Assembly (NCBI RefSeq): GCF_017183135.1
Contig: NZ_JADDXW010000002.1
Coordinates: forward strand, 248,001 to 312,000
DNA: 64,000 nt
Direction: 5' to 3'
Source of the DNA: Aurantimonas marina
Lineage (GTDB): Bacteria > Pseudomonadota > Alphaproteobacteria > Rhizobiales > Rhizobiaceae
Shown: in pieces, positions 13,619 through 42,378 of the stretch
How the letters are laid out: each line of letters opens with the position of its first letter
How positions within the stretch are numbered: the stretch's first letter is position 1
Position numbers and translations under genes: made by a program
The notes under the pieces: generated by a model
Told to the model about the DNA's origin: nothing
Seen by the model: only the letters and a program-made list of their open reading frames with translations
The model's database searches: none

Positions 13619-13822
13619 ATGGGAAACTATGTAGAAGGCGCTCGCCTTTCGCAGGACGAGGACCTGAGTCCCGAGGACCGAAAGGCGTATCGCGGTGGTC
13701 TCGAGCGTTTCCACAAGGGGCTCGAAAAACTGCACACGGCAGAGGCGGAACTGGCGCGCCTGCGCGCCGATCTGGCCCACTCCGGCACCGACCTGACGGC
13801 GCCCGACTCCCTGCACTGGTAG
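13619..13822 (+). CDS. Small peptide A, candidate precursor/scaffold peptide
   Basis: 67 residues with a good ribosome site (GGAGAG, seven bases before the ATG). It starts with an acidic segment. A helical, charged stretch follows (GGLERFHKGLEKLHTAEAEL, then ARLRADLA). The C-terminus is TDLTAPDSLHW. The following gene encodes a paralogue with the same last ten residues (DLTAPDSLHW). No signal peptide or cysteine is present. The tandem duplication, conserved C-terminus and immediately downstream peptidase suggest a ribosomal precursor with an N-terminal leader and C-terminal core, or a carrier peptide; this is inference. I do not recognise the family. Confidence 0.75.
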   Translation: MGNYVEGARLSQDEDLSPEDRKAYRGGLERFHKGLEKLHTAEAELARLRADLAHSGTDLTAPDSLHW

Positions 13823-13919
13823 GCGGCGAGAGCGCATCCCCACTGCCTGGGATGCACTTATCGGTTGCAAAACGACCCTTTGCGATCACCCGTAATCTAT
13901 CCGTAGAAGGAATAACGAC

Positions 13920-14111
13920 ATGACCGGAAACGCGACAAGCTCATTTGAAAGCATGTCCCCCGAACAGCAGAAGGCGCATCTGGGCGGGCTGGAAAAGTTT
14001 CACACGGGGTTGGAGAAGCTGCACATGGCCGAGGCGGAACTTGCGCGGGTGCGCGCCGATCTGGCGCGCTCAGGCGTCGATCTCACGGCGCCCGACTCCC
14101 TGCACTGGTAG
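13920..14111 (+). CDS. Small peptide B, paralogue of peptide A
   Basis: 63 residues, preceded by an AAGGA ribosome site. From GGLEKFHTGLEKLHMAEAEL onward it aligns with peptide A almost residue for residue and ends VDLTAPDSLHW. The first 17 residues are unrelated in detail. The DNA of the last 60 bases is also nearly identical between the two genes, so they arose by tandem duplication. Its stop codon is two bases before the GTG of the peptidase gene, implying coupled translation. A small coiled-coil-like regulatory protein is an alternative to a precursor role. Confidence 0.75.
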   Translation: MTGNATSSFESMSPEQQKAHLGGLEKFHTGLEKLHMAEAELARVRADLARSGVDLTAPDSLHW

Positions 14112-14113
14112 CA

Positions 14114-15787
14114 GTGCCGGCGGATGGCGCGATGCTTCAGGTTCTTGCGTCCGGTGCGCCCCGATTTCGAAGCGAGAGGGTTGCCCGGGACGATCCCGCC
14201 ATCTGCCATGCGATCGGCTCCGCTACGCGACCGATTGCCGAAGCCTATGCAAGGGCGACGGGGCGGGCCTTTCACCCCCTTTCGTCTCCGGCCCCGCACC
14301 GTCTGGGCGGGGGTGACGTCGTCGTCACACTCGCTGACGATCTGACCGACGATCTTGTGGACGCGGCGACCGCACCGGGAGCCGGCTCGGTGGCCGGCTT
14401 CCTGATCGGCCGCAGCCTCGAGGAACTCGGCGCAAAGGCGGCCGCGAGTGCCGCAGCGCTGTGGAAGCCTTTGGCCGACGTGCCGTTTCGCCTCGACCTT
14501 TCTCCGCAGCTTCCCATCGGCGTCACCGAGACGCGGGACTTCGCCCTGTGCGGCCGCGCGTCGGACACAGCCCATTTGCGCAGGCTGCTCGGCCGAGGCG
14601 ACAGCCTCATCTCGGTGACCGGTCACGGCGATGGCATCGACGGCGATCTCGGGCCTCTCGTGCTGTGCCCGGTGGATGCGGCCTTCGACGCCGAGGATCG
14701 GCCCCGCAAGCCGAGCTGCCGAGTGAGCGGCCACTGTCACCGCTTCCATATCGGCCATGAAATGGCGGCTTTCGCCGGGGCGAGCTTGCATCCCGCCGCC
14801 ATCAAGGCGCGGGCGATGATCTGGAACACCTGCGTCGGCTGGCCATCCCAGGACAATTTCATCGACCGAAGCTATGGTGCCGGAGTGCGTCTTGCCGCGT
14901 CACCGGCGCTCGGCGCGCTGGTGACGACGGCGCGGATCGTCATCGCCTCGCCGGTGTCGGTCGACCTTTTGGCCGGCGCGCTCTCGCGCGGCATGCCGAT
15001 CGGGGACGCGGTGGCGGCCCACAATCGTGCGCCGCAAGCCCTCGCCTCCGGCCACCGGTTCGTGCTGTTCGGCGATCCTCTTCTGCGCGTCGCGCCGCAG
15101 CCCGCGTCGATCAACGGCGCGGGAGCGGACACGCCTCGGCTTCCCACATCGGCACGCCTGGCGGCGTCCCCGCCGCGTCCTTCGCGGCCGCCTCTCGCGC
15201 CTGTCGCCGCCGACGACCCGGACCAACTGGCGCTTGCCGCGCTGGCCACCCTCAGCGCGATACCGGGCGTTGCCGACCTACGACCACGCGCCTTCGCCTG
15301 TCTGACTGACGCCTTGGCGAAGGGCGGGCTCGAAGGCGTCTGGGTGCGCGCGAGCCAGGCGTCGATGCGCGGCGCGGTGCCCTGCCCCCATTGCGGTAAC
15401 CATGCGAGCCGTCTCATGCTCGACGGATCGCCAGCCGTCGGGCAGCGGCTCCTGACGATCTGCCGGCGCTGCGAAGTCGCCGCCGACACGCCGCCGGAGC
15501 CAAGCTTCTCCGCGCATCTCGACACCGGCGGCGTTTGGCGCCTGCGGGGCGAGCGTCCCCGAACCGGCAACTGGCTGGGATCGCTGGTCGTCCGGCGCTG
15601 CGAGCCTTTTACGACGGTCATCGAGCCATGGCCGACCGATGCCGACGGCCGTCCCCGCACCACGCTCGATTGCGGCCGGTTCCGGGGCCCCGCGCCGATG
15701 ACGCTCGCCGCGATGTTTTACGCGCGGCGGCAGCTATCAATCTTCTCGCGGCCGTTGCCGGCAAGGCCTGAGGAGGTGTCGCCATGA
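14114..15787 (+). CDS. C25/caspase-like (clan CD) cysteine peptidase with zinc ribbon
   Basis: 557 residues from the GTG at 14114; an ATG at 14132 is an alternative start. The central region has the clan CD dyad pattern: His171 in ISVTGHGDG after a hydrophobic strand, and Cys240 in MIWNTCVGW after another. The C-terminal family signature FVLFGDPLLRV is at about 317-326, as in gingipain (C25) and CHAT proteases. A four-cysteine zinc ribbon follows (Cys424, 427, 450, 453). No signal peptide, so it acts in the cytoplasm. Its position directly after the two peptides makes it the obvious candidate for cleaving them. Its stop overlaps the desaturase start (ATGA). Confidence 0.65.
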   Translation: MPADGAMLQVLASGAPRFRSERVARDDPAICHAIGSATRPIAEAYARATGRAFHPLSSPAPHRLGGGDVVVTLADDLTDDLVDAATAPGAGSVAGFLIGRSLEELGAKAAASAAALWKPLADVPFRLDLSPQLPIGVTETRDFALCGRASDTAHLRRLLGRGDSLISVTGHGDGIDGDLGPLVLCPVDAAFDAEDRPRKPSCRVSGHCHRFHIGHEMAAFAGASLHPAAIKARAMIWNTCVGWPSQDNFIDRSYGAGVRLAASPALGALVTTARIVIASPVSVDLLAGALSRGMPIGDAVAAHNRAPQALASGHRFVLFGDPLLRVAPQPASINGAGADTPRLPTSARLAASPPRPSRPPLAPVAADDPDQLALAALATLSAIPGVADLRPRAFACLTDALAKGGLEGVWVRASQASMRGAVPCPHCGNHASRLMLDGSPAVGQRLLTICRRCEVAADTPPEPSFSAHLDTGGVWRLRGERPRTGNWLGSLVVRRCEPFTTVIEPWPTDADGRPRTTLDCGRFRGPAPMTLAAMFYARRQLSIFSRPLPARPEEVSP

Positions 15788-16674
15788 CCGCGCCCTCCGA
15801 CCCGCCCGTCGCGGCGTTCGCGCCCTCCTATGCCCTGTCGCTCGCCAAGCTCGCCGGCTTCGTCGTCTCGGTCGCGGCGCTCGTTTGGGTGGTCGGCACC
15901 AACGAGGGGCCGTACACCTTCGCCGCCACCTTCGGCCTCGCGGTCCTTTACGCTCACGGCCTGGAACTCCAGCACGAGGCGCTGCACGGGATTTTCCTCT
16001 CCGGCGAGACCGCCAACCGCCTCGCCGGATCGCTGCTCGGTGCGCCGATGCTGGCGAGCTTCACCGACACCCGCATCCGCCATCTGCATCACCACCGTCA
16101 CGTCGGAACGCCAGCCGACGTCTTCGACCGGAGTTGCCGGGATTTCGCCAGCCGACGCGCCCTCCTCCTCCATGTCTTCGACCCCGCTCGCTTGCCGGCG
16201 TTCCTGCGCGCGACGTTCGTTCTGGCCCGGGGCGGCCGTCCCGGCCCGTTCGGCTCCAAATCGCTCGCCCGGGCGCGAACCGAGCATCTGGCGCTCGCCG
16301 CGCTCGCCATCGGGCTGATCGTTGCCGGTGGCCTTCTCGCGCCGCGGCTCCTCGTCTTGGGATGGCTGGTGCCGGCCTTCCTCATCGCGCCGCCCTTGCA
16401 CTTCCTGATGACCGCACCCGAACATCTCGGCCGCGATCCCGCGTCCCGCGACCTGACGCAAAACACCCGTTCCTATCGCGCCCCGGCGGTATGGAGCTAT
16501 CTGGTCAATTACGACAATTACCATCTCGAACATCACCGCTATCCGGCCTTGCCGTTTCATCGCCTGCCCGCCCTTCATGCGCTGCGGACGGGCGAGCATC
16601 CCGGCGGACGCGGCTATGGCGCCGCGCTCCGCGAGGTGGCGGCGGCGATCGCGGCCTGCCGGCGGACGGGCTGA
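15784..16674 (+). CDS. Fatty acid desaturase family membrane di-iron enzyme
   Basis: 296 residues with about four to six hydrophobic helices and the three histidine boxes of the membrane desaturase/hydroxylase superfamily: HGLELQHEALH (60s), RHLHHHRH (about 99-106) and HLEHHRYP near residue 245. Such enzymes use O2 and two irons to desaturate or hydroxylate acyl chains or other small substrates. Within an operon of amide-, sugar- and amine-forming enzymes it may act on a cluster intermediate rather than a phospholipid; that is inference. It starts four bases inside the peptidase gene. Confidence 0.88.
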   Translation: MTAPSDPPVAAFAPSYALSLAKLAGFVVSVAALVWVVGTNEGPYTFAATFGLAVLYAHGLELQHEALHGIFLSGETANRLAGSLLGAPMLASFTDTRIRHLHHHRHVGTPADVFDRSCRDFASRRALLLHVFDPARLPAFLRATFVLARGGRPGPFGSKSLARARTEHLALAALAIGLIVAGGLLAPRLLVLGWLVPAFLIAPPLHFLMTAPEHLGRDPASRDLTQNTRSYRAPAVWSYLVNYDNYHLEHHRYPALPFHRLPALHALRTGEHPGGRGYGAALREVAAAIAACRRTG

Positions 16675-16680
16675 GCGGCC

Positions 16681-18435
16681 ATGTGCGCAATCGCGGGATG
16701 CATCTCCTTGGCCCACGCGCCGGACTGCCGGGAATTGCTGGCGGCAATGCGCCATCGCGGCCCCGACGAGGCCCGCCAAGTCGTTGACGGTCCGCTCGCG
16801 ATCGGTGCCGCGCGTCTGGCCATCGTCGATGCCGAGCATGGCGCGCAGCCGATGCAAGACGCTAAAAGCGGCATTGCCGTCGTCTTCAACGGCGAAATCA
16901 CCAACGCGGCCGAACTCCGCGACAAGTTGAGCCGACGCGGCCATCGCTTTCGCGGCCGCTGCGACACAGAAGTCGTGCTCGCCGCCTTCGTCGCCTGGGG
17001 CGAGGCCGCGGCGGCGCGGCTCGCCGGGATGTTCGCGATCGCCGTGCGATTTCCCGATCGCCTGCTGCTCGTCCGCGACCGCCACGGCATCAAGCCGCTC
17101 GCCTTCCATTGCGAGGTGCGCGCCGACCGCTTCCTCTTCGCCTCCGAGGCCAGGGCGATCGCCGCCGTCCTACCGCGGCCGCCAGGCCTCGACGTGACGA
17201 CCCTCGCCGACTTCTCGGTCCTCGGGACGCCGGTCGACGGCGCCACCTTCTTCGAGGACATCACCGAGCTCCGCCCCGGTCACATGATGGCGGTGACATT
17301 GCGCGGCGGCCTCCGCGTCGGGCCGCAGCGAGCCCTTGCCGACCCTCCCGGAACAGCCGTATTGCCCGCCCTTGCGATGGTCGACGAACGCGAGGCGGAC
17401 GAACGCTTCGAAGCCGCTCTGATCGCCGCGGTTCGCCGGCATCTCCTGGCGGACACGGAGATCGTCGTCAGCCTGTCCGGCGGGCTCGATTCGGCGGTGC
17501 TGGCGCTGGTCGTGGCGGAGCTGACCGGTCGCCCGCCCCGGACCTTCACCGTCGCCGACGATGCGGACCATCCGGACCCGGTCGCGGCCCAAACGCTCGC
17601 CCGATCGCTCGGCGGCGCGCACGACTTCCTCGCCGTTTCGTTCGAGGCGTTTGTGGCGGCGATTCCGGCGACGCTCCGCGCCGTCGAACTACCCGATCTC
17701 GCCGCCGGCCCGCTCTTCGCGCTGCTCTGCCGCCGGATCGGCGCCAGCGCCCGCTGCTGCCTGAATGGCGAGGGCGCCGACGAACTCATGGGCGGTTATG
17801 CGGCTTACCGGACGCCGGAACGGTCGCTCGCCGTCATCGAGGCGGCGCTGCGGCGTGTGACGCGAGTCGGACACGCACCGCGCGAGGGCGTGCTTACCCG
17901 AATCGAGGCGCTACGGGCGGCGGCCACCACGGGCGGACTGCGCGACGCATTGCTCGCCCGCGACCGCGCCGATCCGCTGGAGCGCGGCCATCTGCAGCCG
18001 GTCGACCGGCTTTCGATGGCCGCCTCGGTCGAAATGCGGGTTCCCTATCTCGACGACGATCTCGTTGACCTTCTGACGACACTGCCGCCGTCGATGGTGG
18101 TCGGCCCGGCCGGCACGTCCGGCAAGGCGATCCTGCGTCGCTTCGCCGTTCGCCGCTACGGCAAGCGCGCCCGCGCCATCGTCACACGGCCGAAGCTGAT
18201 GATGCCGGAAGCCGCACGTGGCCATTTGAACCGATTCCGGTCCCTGTGTGAGCGCGCCATCCCCGATCGCGCTCTTCGCTCCTCCGAATTCGGCGGTCTT
18301 TTCGACGATAAATCGGATTTTGTACTGTTCGAGATGTTTCGCCGTCAGGTCTTCGCCAAGGGCGAACTGTCCGACATCCAGGAGGTCACGGCGGAGATGG
18401 CGGGACGGCCCGAAGCGGCGCTGGCGGCCCTGTGA
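16681..18435 (+). CDS. Asparagine synthetase B-like glutamine amidotransferase
   Basis: 584 residues. The N-terminal class II glutaminase domain begins MCAIAGC with the nucleophilic Cys2 and has RHRGPDE, VFNGEI and CDTEVVL. The C-terminal ATP-pyrophosphatase domain has the P-loop SLSGGLDSA (264-272) and NGEGADELMGGY. Such enzymes activate a carboxylate as acyl-adenylate and form an amide with glutamine-derived ammonia; homologues make amides or lactams in natural-product pathways, including lasso cyclases. Unlike many lasso cyclases, the glutaminase nucleophile is intact, so simple amidation is likely. It sits six bases after the desaturase gene and overlaps the next gene by four bases. Confidence 0.88.
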   Translation: MCAIAGCISLAHAPDCRELLAAMRHRGPDEARQVVDGPLAIGAARLAIVDAEHGAQPMQDAKSGIAVVFNGEITNAAELRDKLSRRGHRFRGRCDTEVVLAAFVAWGEAAAARLAGMFAIAVRFPDRLLLVRDRHGIKPLAFHCEVRADRFLFASEARAIAAVLPRPPGLDVTTLADFSVLGTPVDGATFFEDITELRPGHMMAVTLRGGLRVGPQRALADPPGTAVLPALAMVDEREADERFEAALIAAVRRHLLADTEIVVSLSGGLDSAVLALVVAELTGRPPRTFTVADDADHPDPVAAQTLARSLGGAHDFLAVSFEAFVAAIPATLRAVELPDLAAGPLFALLCRRIGASARCCLNGEGADELMGGYAAYRTPERSLAVIEAALRRVTRVGHAPREGVLTRIEALRAAATTGGLRDALLARDRADPLERGHLQPVDRLSMAASVEMRVPYLDDDLVDLLTTLPPSMVVGPAGTSGKAILRRFAVRRYGKRARAIVTRPKLMMPEAARGHLNRFRSLCERAIPDRALRSSEFGGLFDDKSDFVLFEMFRRQVFAKGELSDIQEVTAEMAGRPEAALAAL

Positions 18436-19496
18436 ACACGCCGGCTCCGCTTCGAATGGGTTTCTGCGGCGCGGGCTGGGTGGTCCGCAATTGCTACCGG
18501 CCGGCGCTGGAGACCCTAGGCGGCCGGGTCGTCGTCGCGGCGGCGCTCGAACCGGATCCGGCGGCGCAGGCGGCGGCTCGCGACCTGTTTCCCGAGGCCC
18601 TGATCGTGTCGACGCGCGAGGATCTGTCGGCGGCGCCGATCGAGGCTGTCATCATCGCGTCGCCAAACCCCTGCCATGTCGACGACGCGGAAGCGTTTCT
18701 CTCGAGCGGCCTCGCCTGCCTGGTCGAAAAGCCGGTGCTGCGCGGTTCCGCCGATTGGGCGCGGCTGTCGGCGGCCGGCCGTCGCGGCGGGGCGGCGCTC
18801 GCCGCCGGCGTCGCCTGCCGTCACCGCCCCGACGTCAGCCGCTGGCTGGAGGGCGCGGCAACGATCGGCCCGCTGCGGCGCCTCGACCTGATCTGGCATC
18901 GCCAGCGCGGCGTTCCGGCGACCGCCTGGCACCTAGCTGAATCGCCCGGCTGGACCGGCGTCTTCGCCGATCTCGGCTCACACCTTGTCGATCTGGCCGG
19001 CGCCGCGCTTCGCTGGCGTACCGACGGGCTGGACATTCGTTTCGCGCGTCGGTCCCGCACAGGCCATGCCGCGCCCGCCGCATGGTACGATGGGACGGCG
19101 CCAGAACTCTCGCCCAGCGCTTTTGGCCCCGCCGACCGCTTCGAAGCAGAGGGGCGCGTCGCGGACTGCACCGTTCGTCTTTCCGTTCGCTGGCGCGACG
19201 AGACGCCGGGCGACCTCGTCCGGCTCGACGCGATCGGCGAGGACGGCGTCTGCCGGCTCGACGGCCTGTTCGGCTTCTCCGGAGAACGCCGGACCCCGCA
19301 CCAGCGCGTCACCCTGAAGCGACGCGGCGAAGCGCCGGAGATTTCGGATTTCATGCCCGGCCCCGCTCTTCACGTCGCAGGTTTTGCGGCGATGCTGGAG
19401 GCATTTCAGCGCCGCGCCGCCGCCGGATGGCAAGAGCAACCAGACCTCGATTTTGCCGCCCGACTCGGCGATGCGATCGCAACGGCGCTGCGATGA
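18432..19496 (+). CDS. Gfo/Idh/MocA family NAD(P)-dependent sugar oxidoreductase
   Basis: 354 residues. The N-terminal Rossmann fold starts RMGFCGAGWVVRNCY (GxGxxG-like), with the family motif EKP at residues 99-101 (CLVEKPVL) and a C-terminal domain containing DLGSHLVDLAGAAL with the usual histidine-aspartate pair. These enzymes oxidise or reduce hydroxyls of sugars, sugar phosphates or inositols. The GTG start overlaps the preceding stop (GTGA). Together with the following ROK kinase and DegT aminotransferase it resembles the oxidoreductase of kanosamine-type pathways (NtdC, RifL), a plausible 3-dehydrogenase role by context only. Confidence 0.85.
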   Translation: MNTPAPLRMGFCGAGWVVRNCYRPALETLGGRVVVAAALEPDPAAQAAARDLFPEALIVSTREDLSAAPIEAVIIASPNPCHVDDAEAFLSSGLACLVEKPVLRGSADWARLSAAGRRGGAALAAGVACRHRPDVSRWLEGAATIGPLRRLDLIWHRQRGVPATAWHLAESPGWTGVFADLGSHLVDLAGAALRWRTDGLDIRFARRSRTGHAAPAAWYDGTAPELSPSAFGPADRFEAEGRVADCTVRLSVRWRDETPGDLVRLDAIGEDGVCRLDGLFGFSGERRTPHQRVTLKRRGEAPEISDFMPGPALHVAGFAAMLEAFQRRAAAGWQEQPDLDFAARLGDAIATALR

Positions 19497-20341
19497 GCGC
19501 GGTCCTCGCCGTCGACCTCGGGGGCACGTGGCTGCGCGCGGCGCTGGTCGGCCCGAACGACGATATCCGCAGCCGGATCGGCACGATCCCGACGCCGTCT
19601 GGCGCGCCGGATTGTGCCCGCGCGATCGCCGACGCATGGGAAGCGGCCGCGCGGCCGGCGCGGCTCGCCATCGCGGCGGCGCCCCATTGCGACGCGGCGG
19701 GTCGGGTGATCCGCTGGCCGAACCGCCCGGCTTATGAGGGCGAGACGATCCTACCTCCCGACCTTGCCGGGCAAGTCGATTTTCGCATCCTCGACGACGC
19801 CGCGGCCGCCGCCCTCGCCGCGCATACCGTGGGCACGCCGGACACGGCGCGCGAGACCACCGTCGTCTTCGCGATCGGCACCGGGATCGGCGGCGGCGCG
19901 GTCGTTGGCGGCCGGCTCCTGACCGGCCGGAGCGGCGCGGCGATGGCGGTCGGGCATATCAAGGTTCCCGCCGCCAGCGGCCTCGTCTGCGCCTGCGGCG
20001 AGATCGGCTGCCTACAGGCGGCGGCGTCCGGCCGGGCCTTGCGCCGCATGCTGGGCCAGTCCGACGCGGATGCCTTCGACATCTTCGCGCTACCGGCATC
20101 GATCCGCGATCCGGTTCTGGACCGCGCCGCCGACGCTTTGGCCGAGGCACTGGCGACCCTCGCCCGGCTGTTCGATCCGCACCGGCTGGTGATCGGCGGC
20201 GGCCTCGGCCTGTCGCCCCTGTTCGATCTATGTGCCGAGCGATTCACCGGCGGCGGACGGCCGCCGCCGATCCGGCATCCGCACGGCGCCGATGCCGCGC
20301 TCATCGGCGCGACGCGGGCGGGATTCCGCGCATTCGCTTGA
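19493..20341 (+). CDS. ROK family sugar kinase
   Basis: 282 residues. An N-terminal phosphate loop VDLGGTWLRAAL and the nucleotide-binding IGTGIGGGAVVGG are followed by the ROK zinc signature, GH-N9-CACGEIGCLQ ending in a serine-glycine. ROK kinases phosphorylate glucose and aminosugars such as kanosamine or N-acetylmannosamine. Its start overlaps the previous stop (ATGA), so production is tied to the oxidoreductase. By context it would make a sugar 6-phosphate for the oxidation and transamination steps encoded on either side. Exact sugar preference cannot be read from sequence. Confidence 0.88.
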   Translation: MSAVLAVDLGGTWLRAALVGPNDDIRSRIGTIPTPSGAPDCARAIADAWEAAARPARLAIAAAPHCDAAGRVIRWPNRPAYEGETILPPDLAGQVDFRILDDAAAAALAAHTVGTPDTARETTVVFAIGTGIGGGAVVGGRLLTGRSGAAMAVGHIKVPAASGLVCACGEIGCLQAAASGRALRRMLGQSDADAFDIFALPASIRDPVLDRAADALAEALATLARLFDPHRLVIGGGLGLSPLFDLCAERFTGGGRPPPIRHPHGADAALIGATRAGFRAFA

Positions 20342-20366
20342 CGCGCGCAATCGCCTCCATAATACT

Positions 20367-20384: not shown

Positions 20385-20392
20385 GGGTATCG

Positions 20393-21613: not shown

Positions 21614-21619
21614 CCCCCG

Positions 21620-33606: not shown

Positions 33607-33672
33607 CATGTAACCCACGGTTGCAGATTTTCAAGGCCCATGCCATCGTGTTCCACGAGACAGGAGGCCGAA

Positions 33673-34836: not shown

Positions 34837-35648
34837 ACCGTCGACCCAGCCCCCACGGCCAGAAGCCGCGCCGCGGCGTCGATCGTGTCGCAGGTCGGCA
34901 GCAATGTCAGCACAAGACAATCGGCGAGCCAGGGCGGACGGGCGTTTTCACCGTCGTCGCGCCCGGTATCGCCCGCGACATGGCGGCAGAGTTCGTCGAC
35001 CCGTTGCCAGTCGCCCTCGTCGCAGGCGCGCAGCATGGCCGCGAACAAAGCCGGACGATCCGCCAGCGCCACGGCGAAATCCGCCAGCCGCCGCAGCCGT
35101 TCGGGCTCGACGTCGAAAGCCGCGTCGCCTACGCCGCCGTTCTCGTACAGCGCCACGGCGGCGCCCGTCGCCGCGATCAATCCCTGCACGGACCGGTTGC
35201 GCATCAGCCGGTCAGCGAAAAACAGCCGGGTGCGCGGCGACAGGCGGCGGTCAGGGTCGACGTGTTTCGCCGCCTGGCGCAGGTCGCGCGGCGTTAACGC
35301 CAGGCTGGCAAATGTGTCGGGGATCGCGAAGGGCAGATAGATCAGCGCCAGCGCCATGCCGGCAAGCTCCGCCCCGGCGCCCGGCGCCGCCTGGGCAAGC
35401 CGTTCCGCGCAGGCCTCAAGGCATGTCTCCTCGCTGTGCAGCAGACGCGCCAGGCTGTCGGCATCGAAGCGCCCGCTGGCCAGCGCCTCGCAGGCAACCG
35501 CCAGCGAGCGGAGCTGCCGCCCGTCGCGATCATCAACCAGATCCGAAAAGACATGGCCGCGATCGACGATCTGCTGCTTGGCCGCGAATTCGCGCAGCAT
35601 CGAACGGCCCCAGGCGCGCCGGAGGCGATCGGTCTGAACCGCAATCAT
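34749..35648 (-). CDS. Unrecognised cluster protein (299 aa)
   Basis: I do not recognise this protein. It is predicted soluble and mostly helical, with leucine/alanine-rich stretches (ELAGMALALIYLPFAIPDTF, RQAAKHVDPDRRLSPRTRLFF) and a cluster of cysteines spread through the chain (TCLEAC, ACDEG, DELCRH, ADCLVL, TCDTI). No signal peptide. It is divergent from the second carrier protein over an AT-rich shared promoter region and overlaps the radical SAM gene tail to tail. Position suggests a cluster-specific role, perhaps a partner or carrier, but that is only context. The coding frame has strong third-position GC, supporting a real gene. Confidence 0.6.
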   Translation of the reverse strand: MIAVQTDRLRRAWGRSMLREFAAKQQIVDRGHVFSDLVDDRDGRQLRSLAVACEALASGRFDADSLARLLHSEETCLEACAERLAQAAPGAGAELAGMALALIYLPFAIPDTFASLALTPRDLRQAAKHVDPDRRLSPRTRLFFADRLMRNRSVQGLIAATGAAVALYENGGVGDAAFDVEPERLRRLADFAVALADRPALFAAMLRACDEGDWQRVDELCRHVAGDTGRDDGENARPPWLADCLVLTLLPTCDTIDAAARLLAVGAGSTVYRSAATVTADADPDSAGAANRARASAGA

Positions 35649-35676
35649 CGAACCGCAGGTCTCATGCCGTTACGCT

Positions 35677-35695
35677 ATCTAAGGTTGTATATCGA
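35677..35695. promoter_or_regulatory. AT-rich element in the divergent promoter between the unknown gene and the second carrier protein
   Basis: TCTAAGGTTGTAT (35678-35690) lies in an AT-rich stretch that contrasts with the GC-rich surroundings, between divergent genes. It resembles elements at 13555 and 20368 and, on the minus strand, 41566. A shared operator or promoter is possible. Confidence 0.35.
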
Positions 35696-35748
35696 AGCAA
35701 CCAGAGATAGTATTTCCGTTGGATATGTCGGAGAAACGGGTGGGCGGC

Positions 35749-36063
35749 ATGGAAACCAACCAGGACGGGATCGCGGCTCGCCAGTTGGAGGACCAACTGG
35801 CGCAAATCCTCGAAAGTCTCTGCGCGCCGAACGAGATGGTCCGGCGGGACGCCGATCTGCGCACCGACAGTTTCGGCGCGATCGGGCTGACGTCGGTCGA
35901 TTATCTCGAGTTCATCCTCAACGTCGAGACCGAATTGAACATCGACGTGCCGGACGAGGCGCTGATGGACCCCGCCCTCGCCTCCGTGCGGCTCTGGGCC
36001 GGCTATCTCGCCCGGCACCGCGACGAACTGGCGACGCCGCTGGTCGGCGCCGCGACGGCCTAG
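35749..36063 (+). CDS. Acyl carrier protein (second)
   Basis: 104 residues from the ATG at 35749; an ATG at 35725 is an alternative. The carrier fold is clear: LEDQLAQILESLC, then FGAIGLTSVDYLEFILNVETEL with the predicted phosphopantetheine serine in GLTSVDYL (TSV instead of the common DSL), and an acidic helix that ends VPDEALMDP. The next gene, a B12-type radical SAM enzyme, begins immediately after its stop, so the two are co-translated and the enzyme may act on a carrier-bound substrate. Confidence 0.85.
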   Translation: METNQDGIAARQLEDQLAQILESLCAPNEMVRRDADLRTDSFGAIGLTSVDYLEFILNVETELNIDVPDEALMDPALASVRLWAGYLARHRDELATPLVGAATA

Positions 36064-37869
36064 ATGCCCGGCGCCCCGCTTCGGGTCGCCCTCGTCGGAC
36101 CGCGCGAGGACCCCTTCACCGACGATCCCGACCGCGAACACCGCGAGCGGATGCTGCGCAGCTTCGAGGAGATCTGCCGGGACATCGTCACCTTCGGCAC
36201 CGACTACACCCTGTCGCGCGAGTTCCTAGGCATCGAATATCTGGCGGCGACGCTGCGCCGGGAAGGCCGCCGGGTGGCGGTCGTCGGCGCCGGCAACGAG
36301 GGGCTCGACGACAAGGCGCTGATCGCGCGGCTCACCGCCTTCGCGCCCGATATCGCCGGCTTCTCGCTGCTCTACGATTTGCAACTGAAGAGCGCGCTGA
36401 CCGCCGCGCGGGCCCTGAAACGCGCAAGGCCCGAAACCTTCATCGTCTTCGGCGGGCCGCTGGCCTCGGCGATCTCGGCGCTGCTGCTCGACACCTTTCC
36501 GTTCATCGACGCCGTCGTCGAGGGCGAAGGCGAAGCGGCGATGGCGCGGCTGGCCGACGCTGTCGAAGGGCGCTGCGCGCTGGACGCGGTTCCCTCGCTC
36601 GTGCGCCGCTCGGAAGGCGGCATCGTCAAGCATCCCCGCGCGACGCCGGCCGACCTCGACACGCTGCCGCATCCCGCCCGCGACATCGTCGCCGCGATCC
36701 GCCAGCGCGGCCTGCCGGTGCCGAGCGCCTATCTGACGACATCGCGCGGCTGCAAGGCGTTCTGCACCTTCTGCACGGTACCGAATATCGTGCGCGGCAT
36801 GAGGGACGGCGTCTACCGGATGCGCGACCCGCGCGGCGTCGTGGATGAGATCGAGGCGGTGACACGCGACCACGGCGTCACGCGCTTCTACATGGCCGAC
36901 GACAATTTCCTCGGCTATGGCGAAGCGAGCAACCGGCGCATGCTGGCCTTCGCCGACGAAATCCTCGCGCGCGGCCTCAAGATCAACTTTCACGCCGAAT
37001 GCCGGGTCGATTCGCTGGTGCCGGCAACGCTGGTCCGGCTGCGCGAGGCCGGTTTCGACCAGATCCTTTTCGGTCTGGAATCCGGGTCGACCAAGACGCT
37101 GAAGCGCTGGGCCAAAGGCCAGACCGTGGAACAGAACGAAGCGGCCGTGGCGTTGGCGCGCGAGCTCAAGCTCGACCTGATGCCGAGCATGATCCTGCTC
37201 GACTGGGAGTCCGGCCTGGACGAGGTCGAGGAGAGTATCGGCTTCATCGAGCGCACGCGGCTGTGGCGCTCGAACCAGCCGTTGTGGCTGGTCAACCGGC
37301 TGAAGGTGCATTGCGGCACAGCCGCCGCGCGGCGCTACGACAATGTCCGGGGCAAGCCGGATTTGCCGCCGGTCGACGCCGGCGACCCCGGTAGCCTGGC
37401 GCGTTGGTGCGCCGCCGCGACCTATCAGCGAACGCCGATCGAAGACCCTCATGTCGCGGCCTTCTGGTCGGCGTTGAACGGCGAGGCGAACCGCTGGTCG
37501 GTGCTGATCGACGAAGTGCTGCCGCCGCTGCTCAAGACGCTGCGGGAGACATCGCGCGACACCGGTCGGGGCGACGCCCTGGCCCGCATCAAACGGATCG
37601 CGACGTTCCGGCGCTCCGTCGGCGGCGCGCTCGCCGGGCTCATGCGGCAACTTGTCGACGCAGCGCAGGAACAGGAAAACGCCAGTCATCGCCCCGAAGG
37701 CCTCGACGGCGTCGCCCGCCGCTTCGTCGAAGGGTTCGAGACCGAGCTGTTCCCCGAAGGGCTCGACGCCTGGCTCGCGCCCAAGCCGACGGGTCTGGTG
37801 GCGATGCCGGGTGCGGCCTCGCGGCCGTCAGCGCGACCGACCGGGGCCATGCCGGCGAAGATCGTCTAG
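36064..37869 (+). CDS. B12-binding-domain radical SAM enzyme
   Basis: 601 residues. The first ~190 residues have the alternating strand-helix pattern of a cobalamin-binding domain (RVALVGPRED, FSLLYDLQLKSAL, FIVFGGPLASA, VVEGEGEAAM) without the DxHxxG base-off motif. The radical SAM motif TTSRGCKAFCTFC (Cys230, 234, 237) is followed by YMADDNFLG, FHAECRVDSLV and FGLESGSTKTLK, standard for class B/E-type barrels. Such enzymes do C-methylation or other radical rearrangements. The C-terminal ~180 residues are helical and not assigned. It starts on the base after the stop of the carrier protein gene and is followed after four bases by the glycosyltransferase. Confidence 0.88.
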   Translation: MPGAPLRVALVGPREDPFTDDPDREHRERMLRSFEEICRDIVTFGTDYTLSREFLGIEYLAATLRREGRRVAVVGAGNEGLDDKALIARLTAFAPDIAGFSLLYDLQLKSALTAARALKRARPETFIVFGGPLASAISALLLDTFPFIDAVVEGEGEAAMARLADAVEGRCALDAVPSLVRRSEGGIVKHPRATPADLDTLPHPARDIVAAIRQRGLPVPSAYLTTSRGCKAFCTFCTVPNIVRGMRDGVYRMRDPRGVVDEIEAVTRDHGVTRFYMADDNFLGYGEASNRRMLAFADEILARGLKINFHAECRVDSLVPATLVRLREAGFDQILFGLESGSTKTLKRWAKGQTVEQNEAAVALARELKLDLMPSMILLDWESGLDEVEESIGFIERTRLWRSNQPLWLVNRLKVHCGTAAARRYDNVRGKPDLPPVDAGDPGSLARWCAAATYQRTPIEDPHVAAFWSALNGEANRWSVLIDEVLPPLLKTLRETSRDTGRGDALARIKRIATFRRSVGGALAGLMRQLVDAAQEQENASHRPEGLDGVARRFVEGFETELFPEGLDAWLAPKPTGLVAMPGAASRPSARPTGAMPAKIV

Positions 37870-37873
37870 ACGA

Positions 37874-38803
37874 ATGGGCGTTCCCGACCTGTCGGTGATC
37901 ATCCCGACATCGGGCAAGCCGGAGCGGCTCGTGCTGGCGCTGCATTCGCTGATCCCGCAGACGCTTTCTCCGGGTCGCTTCGAGACCATCGTCGTCGCCG
38001 ACGGACCAGCCGCCGGCACCGAAGCGGCGGTGGCAACGGTTCGCGCGGCGGGACTGGCTGTCCGCCTTCTGCGCATGGCCACCAAGGGTCAGGCGGCGGC
38101 GCGCAATCATGGCGCGGCCGCCGCGCTCGCTCCGATGATGCTGTTCATGGATGACGACGTGCTGCTGTCGCCGGACTATCTCGAGACCGCCCTCGCCCAT
38201 ATTGCCGACCAACCGAACCGCGTGGTCCGCGCGCCGGTCTATCTGCTGCGCTATCTGGCGCCGTTCCGCGATCCCGAACGCGGCATCCGCTATGACGGGC
38301 GGGCACTCCAGCCCAATTCGCGGCTCACCCAACAGCTCGTGTCCCGCCAAGCCATCGTCGATGACTGGCCGTCGATCGCCCGTCAATGCGTCCACCGCAA
38401 CCGGTTCGAGCGGCTGGTGAGCGACACGCTCGCCAACGGTCCGGCCGCCCATCGCTGGCTCGGCTATTCGGGGTCCGGCGTTGCGCTAGCAAAACCGCTG
38501 TTCGAGGCGGCGGGCGGTTACGACGAGGACTTCGGCTTTCGCTGGGGCGCCGAGGCGATCGAACTCGGCTACCGGCTGATGCGGCGCGGCGCGGAGTTTC
38601 GCGACCTGCCCGGCATATTCTCGGCCCATATGGACCACCCGCGCCGCGCCTCGCTCGACAGTTTCGCGGCGAGTTTCGACCATTTCTTCGCCAAACACCG
38701 CGACCCGGCGATCCGCGCGGTCGAGCGGCTGATCCTCGGAGAAGACCGTCGGCCGGGCAGTCTGTCAGCCTCAGGCGCCATGCCCGCGGTCGAGGAAATC
38801 TGA
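37874..38803 (+). CDS. Family 2 glycosyltransferase
   Basis: 309 residues of the GT-A fold: LSVIIPTSGKPERLVLALHSL, ETIVVADGP, KGQAAARNHGA and the metal-binding LFMDDDVLLSPDY. A GGYDEDFGFRWGAEAIELGYRL motif near residue 215 is the usual acceptor/catalytic region. No membrane helices, so it is a soluble transferase. In this cluster it would attach a (possibly amino-) sugar from a nucleotide donor to the product, though the donor cannot be read from sequence. Its last 33 bases overlap the converging aminotransferase gene. Confidence 0.88.
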   Translation: MGVPDLSVIIPTSGKPERLVLALHSLIPQTLSPGRFETIVVADGPAAGTEAAVATVRAAGLAVRLLRMATKGQAAARNHGAAAALAPMMLFMDDDVLLSPDYLETALAHIADQPNRVVRAPVYLLRYLAPFRDPERGIRYDGRALQPNSRLTQQLVSRQAIVDDWPSIARQCVHRNRFERLVSDTLANGPAAHRWLGYSGSGVALAKPLFEAAGGYDEDFGFRWGAEAIELGYRLMRRGAEFRDLPGIFSAHMDHPRRASLDSFAASFDHFFAKHRDPAIRAVERLILGEDRRPGSLSASGAMPAVEEI

Positions 38804-40189
38804 GAGTTTCTCGCAACCCGCCGCAAAAATCTCTTTCTGGTTCGCCGTCGAAATCCGCACCCAATACTCGCTGGAATCCTCGCGATCATAATCGGCGAAG
38901 ACGCTCTCGGTGTAGAAGTCGAGGCCGGCGTCGTCGAAGGCGTAGCGCGCGAAGGCCCATTCGTCGCGACCACCGTCGAATTTGACACAATGGTTGAAGC
39001 CCGCCGGCGCGGCGATCACCGATCGCAGCCGGTCGCCGAGCCGCCCCTCGAAAGCCTGCCAGTTGGCGGCGCAGATGGCGCCGGTCGCGGAAAGATCGAC
39101 TTGGTAACGGCGAAACGCCTGCGGCCAGTCGACGGCCGCGTCGAGAAACGCCCAGAGATCGCCGGGCCGGGAAAAGTCGTCAGAGTATGGCGAGAACAGC
39201 TTGAGATAACGCCCGGCCCGCCGTGTCACGCGCACCACCAGGTGATCGATCGCCGCGTCGTCTTTCGGATCGCCCACGACGAGCGAAGCAGCCCGGACCC
39301 GGCGCGCTGCGGCCCGCAGCACCATGTCGAGCACCAGGGCGCTCGCCCCGGCGTGGACCGGCGACCAGAGGAGCCGTTCGTTGTGGCGACGGACGAAATC
39401 GACGACCGGCCGGTCGGCGATCAGCCAGCCAGCCCGCAGGCCGGCAAGGCTGCGCGACTTGGAAAACGAGTTGATCCAGATCAGCCGCTCCAGAAAGGCC
39501 TCCGCCTTCGCGGGCAACGGATGCGGCCGATCGGCCTCGCCCGGATGGGCAAGATCGGGCACCTCGTCGAACACCAGCCAGCTTCCAGTGGCCGCGACCG
39601 CCGCGATGACGGCGTCCAGTTCCTCCGCGTTGTAGACTTCGCCGGACGGGTTGGTCGGCTGGGTCAGCACCACGATGTCCGGGCGAAGCTTTGCGACGAG
39701 CGCGACGGCTTCCGCCGCGCTCGGCAGAATACTGTCCGGTTCCTCGGAACAGCAGGTGCGATAGGCGATCCGGTGTTCGTCGCAGATGGTCGAGAAGTAG
39801 CTGTAGTTCAGCCCGAGGACGAGCGCCGTCCGCGCCCCGGCGATCTCGGCGAGATAACGAAAGGCGAAGGCGAGCGCGCCGGTCGCGCCAGCGGTGATCG
39901 CGATATTGGCCGGCCCGATCGCGCCGAAGGCGGCGGCGCCGATCCGCTCATGGGTCTCGAAGGCGATCGCCGCGACGACGGCGGGCGCGCCGCCGGGCGC
40001 GGTATAGTTCTCGACCAGCATCCGCTCTTTAAGCTCACGGGCGGCGATGTCGAGCAGAACCGACGGAGCCTTCAGGTGATTGACCCCCGAGGAGAGATAG
40101 CGGATGCCGCCATGGCGCCTGACGGCGGTGGCCCGACGCGCGGGATCGTAGAAATAGGCATTCGCCCGCTCCAGCGACCGGTAGGTCAC
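38771..40189 (-). CDS. Class I/II PLP-dependent aminotransferase
   Basis: 472 residues of fold type I. Motifs are ITAGATGALAFAF (PLP phosphate region), VVLTQPTNPSGEVY (substrate/PLP asparagine), WLVFDEVPD (pyridine-nitrogen aspartate) and INSFSKSRSLAGLRAGW with the Schiff-base lysine. Typical family length is about 400, so loops near residues 300-370 are extended. It could transaminate an amino acid or act as a decarboxylating/condensing relative. The gene begins four bases inside the end of the PLP-decarboxylase gene (same strand), so the two products probably act in sequence. Confidence 0.87.
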   Translation of the reverse strand: MTYRSLERANAYFYDPARRATAVRRHGGIRYLSSGVNHLKAPSVLLDIAARELKERMLVENYTAPGGAPAVVAAIAFETHERIGAAAFGAIGPANIAITAGATGALAFAFRYLAEIAGARTALVLGLNYSYFSTICDEHRIAYRTCCSEEPDSILPSAAEAVALVAKLRPDIVVLTQPTNPSGEVYNAEELDAVIAAVAATGSWLVFDEVPDLAHPGEADRPHPLPAKAEAFLERLIWINSFSKSRSLAGLRAGWLIADRPVVDFVRRHNERLLWSPVHAGASALVLDMVLRAAARRVRAASLVVGDPKDDAAIDHLVVRVTRRAGRYLKLFSPYSDDFSRPGDLWAFLDAAVDWPQAFRRYQVDLSATGAICAANWQAFEGRLGDRLRSVIAAPAGFNHCVKFDGGRDEWAFARYAFDDAGLDFYTESVFADYDREDSSEYWVRISTANQKEIFAAGCEKLSDFLDRGHGA

Positions 40190-41520
40190 GGCGGCACCCG
40201 GCCCGGCCCGGCAGCGGCGGGATGGTCCGGCGATTGCAGCGCCAGCACCTCGTCGAACCGCACCCGGCGGGCGATCAGACGTTCATGGTCGCCGTCGACG
40301 AGGATCTCCGGCGGCCAGTCGTGGCCGAGGAAGTTCAGCGGGCTCGCCTGTTTGCCGTAGGCGCCGCAGCCGGAAAAGACGATGAGGCCGCCCGGCGCAA
40401 GGGTCTTCGAGAGCGGCACCGCGCTGGCCAGCCGGTCGGTCGGCGCGCAGAGCGGACCGGTGAGTTCCGTCGGCTCGCTCTTGCTTTCGTCTGCCGGCGG
40501 GCCGGAGACGGCGACCGGCCGCCGCAGGAAGCGCAACGTGCCCGAGACCACCATCAGATGGTGAATGCCACCGTCGAGCGCCGCGAAACGCCGCCCCGCG
40601 GTGCGTTTCACCGCGACGACGCGGGCGAGATACCGGCCGGCCGGCCCGGTGACGTATCGCCCCATCTCAAAGCCGAGTTGCGGGGGCGGAGCGTCCCCGA
40701 CCACGGCTTGCACCTCGGGTCCTCGCAGGAAAGCCGCGATCGGGTCGAGATCTAGGGCGGGGTCGTCGGCATAGAACGGCGCGCCGAAGCCGCCGCCGAA
40801 ATTGACGAAGCGCGGAGCAAACCCCTGCGACAGACGCCCAACCGCCTCGATCAAGGTCGCGAAGCGCCGGACGAAATCGGCGGCGTTGAGCGATCCCGAG
40901 GTCGGATGATTGTGAAACCCGATGATCTCGACCGGCGCCAGGCGGTCTCGGACTCCGAGGATCGCGGCGGCGGTCGCCTCGTCCATGCCGAAGGATGAGG
41001 CGCCCGCCCAGTCGCCGCGCCGCGCGCCGGCATCCTGTGGCAGATCGAGCCGCAAGACCGCGGCGGCCGGGCGTCCCACCTGCCTCGCGATCGCCGCCAG
41101 CCGTTGGATTTCGCCCGGTGATTCAACCTGCAGCGCGAAGATCCTGGCCGCGACCGCCGCGCCAAGATCGTCGTCGGTCTTGGCTGGCCCCGACCAGACG
41201 ATCCGTTTCGCCGGGATTCCCGTCGCCATCGCCAATGCCAGCTCGCCCCTGGAGGCGACCTCCGCCCCGAAGCCAAGTGCGGCGAACAGCCCGACGATAG
41301 CAGGATTCGGATTGGCCTTGACCGGGTAAAAGAGTGCGGCGCCCTCGGGAAAGGCCGCGCGCAACCGCCCAGCTGCGTGGCGCATGGCGGCCGCGTCATA
41401 GACGAAACAGGGCGTGCCATAGCGCTCGGCGATGCCTTCGAGCCGAGCGTGCGGCAGGTTGGCGGCCTCACCTCCGGCCGCACCCGCGCCGGCATTCGGG
41501 ATGTCGGGCAACTCGGCCAT
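40186..41520 (-). CDS. Fold-type III PLP-dependent amino-acid decarboxylase
   Basis: 444 residues of the alanine-racemase-like fold (diaminopimelate/ornithine/arginine decarboxylase group). The PLP lysine lies in ALFYPVKANPNPAIV, with GAEVASRGELALA, IIGFHNHPTSGS, VNFGGGFGAPFY (phosphate-binding glycines) and, near the C-terminus, FSGCGAYGKQASPLNFLG. The last differs from the usual CES(D) active-site motif by having CGAY, as seen in carrier-linked relatives of exosortase and siderophore pathways. The ATG at 41520 follows a GAGG site; a TTG at 41559 is also in frame. It likely supplies a primary amine or decarboxylated unit. Confidence 0.85.
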   Translation of the reverse strand: MAELPDIPNAGAGAAGGEAANLPHARLEGIAERYGTPCFVYDAAAMRHAAGRLRAAFPEGAALFYPVKANPNPAIVGLFAALGFGAEVASRGELALAMATGIPAKRIVWSGPAKTDDDLGAAVAARIFALQVESPGEIQRLAAIARQVGRPAAAVLRLDLPQDAGARRGDWAGASSFGMDEATAAAILGVRDRLAPVEIIGFHNHPTSGSLNAADFVRRFATLIEAVGRLSQGFAPRFVNFGGGFGAPFYADDPALDLDPIAAFLRGPEVQAVVGDAPPPQLGFEMGRYVTGPAGRYLARVVAVKRTAGRRFAALDGGIHHLMVVSGTLRFLRRPVAVSGPPADESKSEPTELTGPLCAPTDRLASAVPLSKTLAPGGLIVFSGCGAYGKQASPLNFLGHDWPPEILVDGDHERLIARRVRFDEVLALQSPDHPAAAGPGRVPP

Positions 41521-41549
41521 AGCCGACCTCGTGGTTGGCGAACCCTTCA

Positions 41550-41569
41550 CGTTACACAACCATAGGATG
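41550..41569 (-). promoter_or_regulatory. AT-rich element upstream of the PLP-decarboxylase gene
   Basis: Read on the minus strand, CCTATGGTTGTGTAACG resembles the elements at 13555, 20368 and 35678. It lies about 30-50 bases upstream of the ATG at 41520, in the 96-base gap after the SDR gene. Confidence 0.3.
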
Positions 41570-41616
41570 CGCTATCGAGGCGGCCGTCAACCGTAGCCGA
41601 TGCCTTCGTGCTTCGC

Positions 41617-42378
41617 TCAGATCGAGCCGGCTTCGACCATGTAGTTGTTGGCGGTGCACATCGCGGCATCGTCGGAGGCCAGGAACAGGACCATTCGCGC
41701 GAGATAGACCGGCTCGATCAGGTCCGGCAGGCATTGCCGCGCGCGGTGTTTCTCGATCGCCTCCTCGGTCACCCACAATTGCTTCTGCCGCTCGGTCATC
41801 ACCCAGCCGGGCACCACGGTGTTGACCCGGATGCGGTGCTCGCCGAGATCGCGGGCGAAGGAACGGGTCATGCCATGGACCGCAGCCTTGGCGGTCGTAT
41901 AGGCCGGCATGCCGCCACCCGCCTCCCACCAGGAATTCGATCCCATATTGACGATCGAGCCCTTGCCGGCGGCGATCATTCCCGGCGCGACCGCCTGGAT
42001 GGCGAACAGCATGTGGCGCAGATTGGTGGCGATGCGTTCGTCGAAATACTCCGGCGTCAGATCCTCCCAGCCGTGCCGGTCGTCGCGGGCGGCGTTGTTG
42101 ACGAGGACGGTGGCGGGCCCGTGCGCTTCGGCAAGTGTCGCAAAGGCGCGTCGCAGATCAGCGATATCGCGCAGGTCGCAAGCCTGGAACGTGACGGTCC
42201 GGCCATCGGCGACCAGCTCGGCGGCAAGCGCCTCGCCCTTCTCGCGGTCGAGATCGACAAAGCCGATCTTCGAGCCCTGCGCGGCGAAGGCGCGGACCAT
42301 CTCGGCGCCGATGCCGGAGGCGCCGCCGGTGACGATGACGCTGGCGCCCTCAAGGCTCGGATAGCTGGCAAAGCGCAT
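41617..42378 (-). CDS. Short-chain dehydrogenase/reductase
   Basis: 253-residue classical SDR. The cofactor motif is VIVTGGASGIGAEMV, the acidic VDLDREKG after strand 2 favours NAD, and NNAARDD and SIVNMGSNSW (catalytic serine) are followed by YTTAKAAVHG (catalytic Tyr and Lys). The C-terminal VPGWVMTERQKQLWVTEEA is typical of sugar/polyol dehydrogenases in this class. It may oxidise a sugar hydroxyl in the cluster or be an ordinary sugar dehydrogenase. It precedes the PLP decarboxylase on the same strand and marks the right edge of the accessory region. Confidence 0.9.
   Translation of the reverse strand: MRFASYPSLEGASVIVTGGASGIGAEMVRAFAAQGSKIGFVDLDREKGEALAAELVADGRTVTFQACDLRDIADLRRAFATLAEAHGPATVLVNNAARDDRHGWEDLTPEYFDERIATNLRHMLFAIQAVAPGMIAAGKGSIVNMGSNSWWEAGGGMPAYTTAKAAVHGMTRSFARDLGEHRIRVNTVVPGWVMTERQKQLWVTEEAIEKHRARQCLPDLIEPVYLARMVLFLASDDAAMCTANNYMVEAGSI

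Follow-up and report, generated by a model that had tools for sequence, protein, structure and literature searches.

A composite cluster of two nested modules in Aurantimonas marina joins small peptides with an invariant tryptophan tail to amino-sugar, carrier-protein and polyamine enzymes

Pearlins are products assembled at the C-terminus of a carrier peptide, which holds the intermediate by an amide bond; a cobalamin radical S-adenosylmethionine (radical-SAM) enzyme acts on it and proteolysis then releases the product (PMC9303977). The pathways to 3-thiaglutamate, 3-thiahomoleucine and ammosamide resemble in these respects a biosynthetic cluster located at positions 13619-42378 of a stretch of 64,000 nucleotides of Aurantimonas marina (contig NZ_JADDXW010000002.1), hereafter the window: a small carrier-like peptide adjoining modifying enzymes, putative chemistry at its C-terminus, a cobalamin radical-SAM enzyme and a peptidase that may serve for release. 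In contrast to the pearlin pathways, the tryptophan residue at the end of the Aurantimonas peptides is encoded, and sugar, carrier-protein and polyamine enzymes are added. The peptidase also differs, being probably gingipain-like, whereas the pearlin peptidases presented in PMC10885120 are TldD/E-like or of the M50 type.

Other parts of the cluster resemble other described pathways. With regard to the amino sugar, the kanosamine branch of the Rif pathway comprises RifL, RifK, RifM and RifN. RifL is of the Gfo/Idh type and RifN of the ROK type, and the cluster likewise exhibits an oxidoreductase, an aminotransferase similar to 3-amino-5-hydroxybenzoic acid (AHBA) synthase and a sugar kinase, with a haloacid dehalogenase (HAD) hydrolase in the version found in a Hyphomicrobiales metagenome-assembled genome (MAG). 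In contrast to the aminoshikimate pathway, the partners RifH, RifG and RifJ are absent among the cluster matches, and an mC7N product is not expected. The butirosin side-chain set (BtrI, BtrJ, BtrK) has its counterpart in a ligase, a free carrier protein and a BtrK-type decarboxylase. However, 2-deoxystreptamine genes are absent among the cluster matches and the ligase belongs to a different family, BtrJ being an ATP-grasp enzyme. As reported for nitrilobacillin (PMC13060819), an AsnB-like enzyme adjoins two short precursors whose C-terminal motif is conserved, but no MNIO or HExxH enzyme is present among the matches and the tail motif is different. Finally, the BpsA family member of the cluster, with its GDDD and DPPY motifs and a nearby S-adenosylmethionine decarboxylase (AdoMetDC), is similar to the enzymes of branched-polyamine synthesis. 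These polyamines are described in PMC12979288 as occurring predominantly in thermophilic bacteria and euryarchaea, whereas the present setting is an alphaproteobacterial cluster with an FkbH protein and a carrier protein.

We show here one composite cluster of two nested modules, with its composition, conservation, linkage, separability, insertion and catalytic motifs. Gene models were built from open reading frames (ORFs), family scans (Pfam, NCBIfam) and conservation. The preliminary description of this DNA had proposed a biosynthetic cluster made of two arms. The cluster is real: its limits correspond to the ATG of the first peptide (13619) and the ATG of a short-chain dehydrogenase/reductase (SDR, 42378), all the gene types that had been named are present, and the tight coupling of the left arm is visible in five four-base start/stop overlaps (ATGA at 15784, GTGA at 18432, and ATGA at 19493, 23017 and 24075). 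The reported lack of polyketide or peptide synthetases also holds, no condensation or ketosynthase domain being found among the Pfam matches of the cluster proteins. The arms, on the other hand, are not the natural units. Instead, one module, M1 (24075-25325 and 30563-33606), is nested inside another, M2 (13619-24078 and 33673-41520). The cluster is more than a chance assembly, since other genomes carry orthologues with identical order and orientation and since the differences in the second peptide are mostly synonymous.

Two genomes exhibit the modules separately. In the Hyphomicrobiales MAG, M2 is contiguous and M1 is missing: the matches of the PIG-L protein and of the first radical-SAM enzyme (radical-SAM 1) are 61 bases apart, and the locus gave no match for BpsA, the carrier protein ACP1, FkbH, AdoMetDC, the GNAT protein or the SDR, with the HAD hydrolase occupying the position of the Gfo/Idh gene. 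A BpsA relative (45% identity), an AdoMetDC and a GNAT are grouped on another contig of this MAG, where they form a separate set of three genes (GNAT, BpsA, AdoMetDC; L036, 5739-7872). In G684, a genome of the same genus, the corresponding position downstream of TadE-TadG and the exporter holds the following cluster genes: BpsA, ACP1, FkbH, AdoMetDC, GNAT and SDR. The matches of the first five are free of internal stops and that of the SDR has one. M1 can therefore exist on its own. For the motif readings and the M1 protein tree, matches below 28% identity were left out, as were DegT below 50% and SDR below 60% for the tree. In this five-taxon tree, A. endophytica, its congener G690 and G684 form one group and the window and Mangrovicella another (support 1.0; A. 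endophytica with G684, 0.81), and M1 of G684 is 83.1% identical to that of A. endophytica, 82.2% to that of G690 and 66.5% to that of the window. M2 was probably lost in G684, which is the simpler history because all other taxa of the tree carry the composite. Genomes G684, G685 and G688 gave no peptide match, and they contain no orthologue of the cobalamin (B12) radical-SAM enzyme (best match 29% identity, E 2e-15).

The two arms had been presumed to belong together, and the possibility that they are never linked fails, as they share a single contig in all six genomes with a spanning assembly (the window, A. endophytica, Mangrovicella, the Hyphomicrobiales MAG, G690 and A. marianensis; the uncultured Aurantimonas locus L011 is outside this count). 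In A. marianensis, the left-arm contig extends as far as the beginning of the B12 radical-SAM gene, inside which the following contig starts. In an A. coralicida MAG, one contig stops in the AMP-ligase gene and another carries BpsA to SDR, with contig ends intervening. The contig scan with the peptidase alignment yielded eight loci, of which six (L010-L015) carry the left arm in the order of the window; Gfo/Idh and BpsA are missing from the examined stretch of L014 and the GntB-like gene from L015, and L012 stops in the AMP-ligase gene. The right-arm pyridoxal phosphate (PLP) enzyme has an orthologue (59-91% identity) in 5/5 searched left-arm genomes, and matches at just 24-33% in both genomes with a distant peptidase relative (Bauldia and Parvibaculum). 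The gene order in common with the window extends over 22 genes in A. endophytica and G690 (peptide counted once) and over 21 genes in Mangrovicella endophytica, where the GntB-like gene is missing. The cluster is reduced or fragmented in A. marianensis, A. coralicida and the Hyphomicrobiales MAG. In line with the earlier statement that no described pathway with this combination was recognised, no cluster of this composition was found in the open-licence literature. Further loci were rejected: one of Nonomuraea, found via BpsA, has only an SDR in common besides and lacks the cluster order, as does one of Burkholderia arboris, found via the GntB-like protein, where a decarboxylase relative (32%) at a distance of about 11 kb is the sole additional match; those of Sinorhizobium and Solidesulfovibrio have only B12 radical-SAM relatives in common with the cluster.

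Both peptides, which are paralogous, are encoded on the forward strand at the start of M2 (peptide 1, 67 residues, 13619-13822; peptide 2, 63 residues, 13920-14111) and end in DSLHW. In an alignment of 12 peptides from seven genomes, Asp, Leu, His and Trp are invariant within the last five positions, together with scattered earlier positions. With the G690 peptide included, the tail D-[S/E]-L-H-W is present in 13/13 peptides from eight genomes, so that, as in ribosomally synthesised and post-translationally modified peptides (RiPPs), a gene-encoded precursor with a conserved part is co-conserved with enzymes. Peptide 2 differs by 11-21 synonymous and 0-1 non-synonymous codons in 6/6 pairs among four Aurantimonas-type genomes; by this codon comparison it is under purifying selection. 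Peptide 1 is freer (7-16 synonymous against 7-16 non-synonymous differences), its tail being kept. The peptide family is rare: it is found in 1/297 order genomes, 5/297 family genomes and 5/8 genus genomes, and the peptidase in 2/297 order genomes and 2/385 class genomes, the source genome being included each time. Two of the five family matches (G838 and G893) are weak, with E 2.9e-4 and 8.1e-4 and alignments that stop at profile positions 57 and 59 of 67, and were not counted as peptides. LysW-type systems combine a Zn-binding carrier protein with an ATP-grasp ligase; the peptides are not LysW-type amino-group carriers, as they have no CxxC, and the sole ATP-grasp match among the scanned proteins is a flank gene at 43238.

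The peptidase gene follows (14114-15787, forward), and its product gave no trusted sequence match in Pfam, NCBIfam or the PDB. His171 (HxDGID), Cys240 (CxGxP) and the four cysteines of a ribbon-like motif in the C-terminal tail (Cys424, Cys427, Cys450 and Cys453) are invariant in 8/8 aligned peptidases. In gingipains and caspases, the histidine precedes the cysteine in sequence. The best AlphaFold2 model has a predicted local distance difference test (pLDDT) score of 74.5 and a predicted template modelling (pTM) score of 0.74, and the top Foldseek match of the peptidase is gingipain K (6i9a, E 4.1e-4, probability 1.00), followed by 4rbm (E 1.3e-3). The predicted gingipain-like fold (clan CD type), with His171 and Cys240 as the putative catalytic dyad, is likely but not certain. 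Similarities with the gingipains (family C25) are the structural match itself, the position of His before Cys and, where the catalytic part draws to its end, a GDP-type segment. In contrast to the gingipains, the window peptidase has a four-cysteine tail domain and no trustworthy sequence match in the PDB. A distant, unannotated relative is found on a Rhodococcus opacus plasmid (L003, 17548-19194), near split non-ribosomal peptide synthetase genes and an isoleucyl-tRNA synthetase gene.

A second type of cluster containing a peptidase of this family is present in Parvibaculum (L017) and Bauldia (L007/L016). Its common set comprises a seryl-tRNA synthetase (SerRS), SPASM radical-SAM enzymes (two and one, respectively), an aldo-keto reductase, the peptidase, which reads as two overlapping ORFs in Parvibaculum, and a PP-loop ATPase with distant similarity to AsnB of the window (E 2.8e-6, small-scale pairwise comparison). 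Each locus encodes a 53-residue peptide, with the tail QPICW or QPTCW. Tail position -5 carries Asp in the clusters with AsnB and Gln in those lacking it, a coincidence for which nothing more is claimed. The SerRS genes beside these peptidases (L007, 4115-5776; L017, 4685-5986) are second copies with scores of 368 and 350 bits, the other copies reaching about 503 and 512; a role in self-resistance or in seryl-tRNA supply is possible. A second small conserved peptide, ...ELIRF[RH]TCC[VA]DPRASK, is encoded at L017 11631-11807 and at about 12712-12822 of L007.

In the first part of M2, the genes that follow the peptidase are all on the forward strand. The asparagine-synthetase-like amidotransferase (AsnB, 16681-18435) keeps its N-terminal Cys, SGG[LI]DS and GEGADE..GGY motifs in 7/7 relatives read, and its best solved relative, 7ylz, is a hydroxyamidotransferase. 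According to PMC13060819, AsnB-like enzymes amidate or nitrilate peptide C-termini via adenylation. A lasso peptide system was rejected: no transglutaminase-like B protein was found among the matches, and AsnB, at 118 bits, does not reach the lasso cyclase cut-off of 525 (NF033535). The Gfo/Idh/MocA oxidoreductase (18432-19496), assigned by family scan and structure-database relatives, and the ROK sugar kinase (19493-20341), whose nearest solved relatives are glucokinase and N-acetylmannosamine kinase, could have RifL-like and RifN-like roles. For the DegT/StrS aminotransferase (20393-21613), AHBA synthase 1b9i (E 3.1e-76) comes ahead of 2-deoxy-scyllo-inosose aminotransferase and perosamine synthetase. 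By analogy, the three proteins resemble the RifL-RifK-RifN set, which makes kanosamine and kanosamine 6-phosphate (PMC8788734). An AMP-forming acyl/amino-acyl ligase (21620-23020; PF00501, E 5.9e-20) and a PIG-L/LmbE-type deacetylase (23017-24078; PF02585, E 8.3e-8), with its SPH[VI]DD motif kept where read, complete this part of M2. In the second part, the carrier protein ACP2 (35749-36063, forward, alternative start ATG 35725; PF00550, E 6.8e-5) is accompanied by a decarboxylase (40186-41520, reverse) that is closer to BtrK (7ru7, E 9e-54) than to diaminopimelate decarboxylase (4.1e-41). BtrK decarboxylates carrier-protein-held glutamate (PMC7857480). The AHBA synthase and BtrK matches back the suggested amino-sugar and carrier-borne chemistry. 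The single amino-sugar/polyamine conjugate is not supported as it was stated, and the joining of M1 and M2 is unproven, because M1 occurs without M2 in G684 and M2 without M1 at the MAG locus.

M2 further comprises radical-SAM 1 (33673-34836, forward), for which SkfB is the only solved relative at E<=0.001, the cobalamin-binding radical-SAM enzyme (36064-37869, forward; PF02310 and PF04055; OxsB, E 1.4e-21) and a family-2 glycosyltransferase (GT2, 37874-38803, forward; PF00535, E 5.3e-19). Two proteins have a weak likeness to Gnt enzymes: a membrane desaturase/hydroxylase-type protein (15784-16674, forward; PF00487, E 2.5e-33; NF041365, E 2.9e-11, far below cut-off), a distant relative of GntB with its His boxes largely kept, and the PLP enzyme of the aminotransferase I/II family (38771-40189, reverse), assigned by family scans and solved relatives, with a weak GntC/VioD likeness. 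A pathway to a cyclic arginine (capreomycidine or enduracididine; GntB-GntC of guanitoxin synthesis, VioD) was rejected for three reasons. The scores are far under the cut-offs (43 of 380 bits for GntB and 87 of 415 for GntC), the best solved relatives of the PLP enzyme are ordinary aminotransferases with GntC 8fft only twelfth (E 7.2e-6), and Mangrovicella keeps the PLP enzyme without any GntB-like match genome-wide. On the opposite strand inside the radical-SAM operon lies a gene for a conserved 299-residue protein (34749-35648, reverse), which matches no family in the scans and whose predicted model is too poor for a structure search; relatives, 44-51% identical, are in place in four genomes (A. 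endophytica, the Hyphomicrobiales MAG, Mangrovicella and G690).

M1 comprises the BpsA-like branched aminopropyl transferase (24075-25325, forward; PF01861, E 1.2e-34), in which a Cys motif lies at the C-terminus, the carrier protein ACP1 (30563-30823, reverse; PF00550, E 5.5e-9), which keeps its DS motif, the FkbH protein expected to form a glyceryl-carrier unit (30843-32555, reverse; TIGR01686, E 1e-54), AdoMetDC (32568-32921, reverse; PF02675, E 1.1e-20) and a GNAT N-acyltransferase (33082-33606, forward; PF00583, E 1.8e-10). BpsA belongs to its family, with GDDD/GxDD and DPPY motifs in 7/7 relatives read, the ESH motif of AdoMetDC is intact in 5/5 relatives read, and FkbH has both a domain above the curated cut-off and a partner carrier protein.

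One gene located within the cluster limits does not belong to the cluster. The gene at 25471-29568 (reverse), encoding a 1365-residue protein with a HigA-type helix-turn-helix (HTH) domain, is an insertion outside the pathway. Its guanine-plus-cytosine fraction is 0.598, against 0.708 for the left arm (13619-25325), 0.686 for the right arm (30563-42378) and 0.628 and 0.645 for the flanks. In A. endophytica, G690, Mangrovicella and G684 it is absent between BpsA and ACP1, the matches of which are separated by just 44-115 bases. The gap is about 5.2 kb in the window (25326-30562), 5.0 kb in A. marianensis (L053, 6162-11139) and 2.7 kb in the A. coralicida MAG (L052, about 4897-7582), with different genes in each, and about 0.7 kb beside ACP1 is common to the window and A. 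marianensis. This interval is an insertion hot spot in one clade. A. marianensis carries there a 1302-residue AAA_23/SMC-type ATPase, and the ORFs of A. coralicida, named by eye, are TetR-, carboxymuconolactone-decarboxylase- and dehalogenase-like. Both large genes may represent cargo with a defence function; PADLOC gave no match for the 1365-residue gene of the window.

Based on these observations, our preferred explanation, to which we give roughly an even chance, is that M2 would be a peptide-scaffold pathway with pearlin-like logic but without the pearlin ligase, adding a kanosamine-type sugar and a butirosin-type amino-acyl chain, with M1 as a nested module. The small peptide with its D-[S/E]-L-H-W tail would be the handle on which, or from the last residues of which, a small molecule forms. 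AsnB-type adenylation or amidation and the radical-SAM enzymes would act on the tethered intermediate, and Gfo/Idh, DegT and ROK would add the 3-amino sugar. The AMP-ligase would load an amino acid on ACP2, to be decarboxylated by the BtrK-like enzyme before the chain is added, PIG-L would remove an acetyl group, and the gingipain-like peptidase would release the finished product. In M1, AdoMetDC and BpsA may make aminopropylated amines and FkbH with ACP1 a glyceryl-carrier unit, with GNAT in addition. The attachment to the peptide, the order of the steps, the product and the joining of the M1 and M2 products are what we infer.

Several points weigh against this explanation. Peptide modification is a prediction from the genes, and no PEARL (LanB-like aminoacyl-tRNA peptide ligase) was found among the Pfam and NCBIfam matches of the scanned cluster proteins. 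The other four of the five peptidase models have a mean pLDDT of just 51-66, and gingipain K, the sole structure match under E 0.001, has template modelling scores of 0.36/0.43 and a root mean square deviation of 21.9; this low score and large deviation are why the fold assignment is not certain. The R. opacus peptidase relative has Gly where His171 aligns. Radical-SAM 1 has no significant similarity to the radical-SAM enzymes of Bauldia and Parvibaculum (E 0.2 and worse), and therefore the two cluster types share the peptidase and the style of peptide, not the full core. The AMP-ligase, the decarboxylase and AsnB also resemble exosortase-associated families below cut-off, and the cluster-bearing genomes are few and related.

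Four other explanations were considered. The locus could be an ordinary carrier-protein pathway to an amino-sugar compound with a butirosin-like chain, a kanosamine-type sugar and perhaps a polyamine, in which the peptides only bind or inhibit the peptidase as its partners, or are matured by it as substrates, for instance in self-protection or regulation. The AHBA-synthase-like DegT with Gfo/Idh and ROK, and the BtrK-like decarboxylase with the AMP-ligase and ACP2, are readily accommodated, and two carrier proteins already supply tethers. We nevertheless consider it unlikely, if a serious contender: the invariance of four of the last five residues in 13/13 peptides fits a substrate better than an inhibitor, and Trp-ending peptides are also found near the same peptidase in the other cluster type. 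A true RiPP, whose product would retain several C-terminal residues (L-H-W, for example), with amidation or nitrilation by the AsnB-like enzyme and radical-SAM cross-links or methyl groups, is suggested by the resemblance of radical-SAM 1 to SkfB, by the action of AsnB-like enzymes on peptide C-termini (PMC13060819) and by an AsnB whose N-terminal Cys, PP-loop and Glu...Tyr motif are kept in 7/7 relatives read. Such a product is improbable, as the sugar and decarboxylase enzymes need a different substrate. The tail is moreover almost invariable, whereas many antibacterial RiPP cores are variable.

If the enzymes attached amino-acyl or amino groups to a polysaccharide of the cell surface, as in gene sets associated with exosortases, this would account for the matches of AsnB, the AMP-ligase and the decarboxylase to TIGR03108, TIGR03098 and TIGR03099, for that of GT2 to EpsD, all below cut-off, and for a bacterial sugar transferase upstream (5040-6623). 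Such decoration is very unlikely: among solved proteins, DegT is closest to AHBA synthase and the decarboxylase to BtrK, Tad genes lie between the cluster and both the sugar transferase and PGM, which are part of the flank, and the peptides and the peptidase are left without explanation. That the two arms are unrelated neighbours is hardly credible. The low-GC insertion between them in the window and the separation of M1 and M2 in two genomes speak for it, but the arms share one contig in 6/6 spanning genomes, the halves of M2 are directly joined in the MAG, and the B12 radical-SAM orthologue is missing from the same three genus members that have no peptides.

At the borders, an EamA/DMT-type exporter gene (12558-13424, reverse; PF00892, E 3.3e-23), divergent from the peptides, belongs to the flank. 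Relatives, 70-88% identical, are found in L010-L013, G690 and G684, so that it is kept in Aurantimonas with and without M2; none was found in the searched MAG and Mangrovicella loci. On the other side, the SDR (41617-42378, reverse), close to xylose dehydrogenase (NF053674, E 4.9e-94, under cut-off), is probably a border gene, as it stays at the locus without M2 in G684.

If the peptide-scaffold explanation is true, amino-sugar, carrier-protein and peptide-tethered chemistry would be combined in one pathway, and one family of peptidases and one of precursor peptides would be added, which genome-mining rules based on known core enzymes would probably overlook. More tentatively, and with less than even confidence, the locus may represent a new class of pathway, in which the encoded C-terminal Trp of a mini-protein (D-x-L-H-W or Q-P-x-C-W) would be the growing point of a small molecule, with PP-loop activation and release by a gingipain-fold peptidase, and in Aurantimonas this system would enclose a polyamine/glyceryl module that is independent of it. 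Genomes that naturally have M1 or M2 alone are ready controls for assigning genes to parts of the product.

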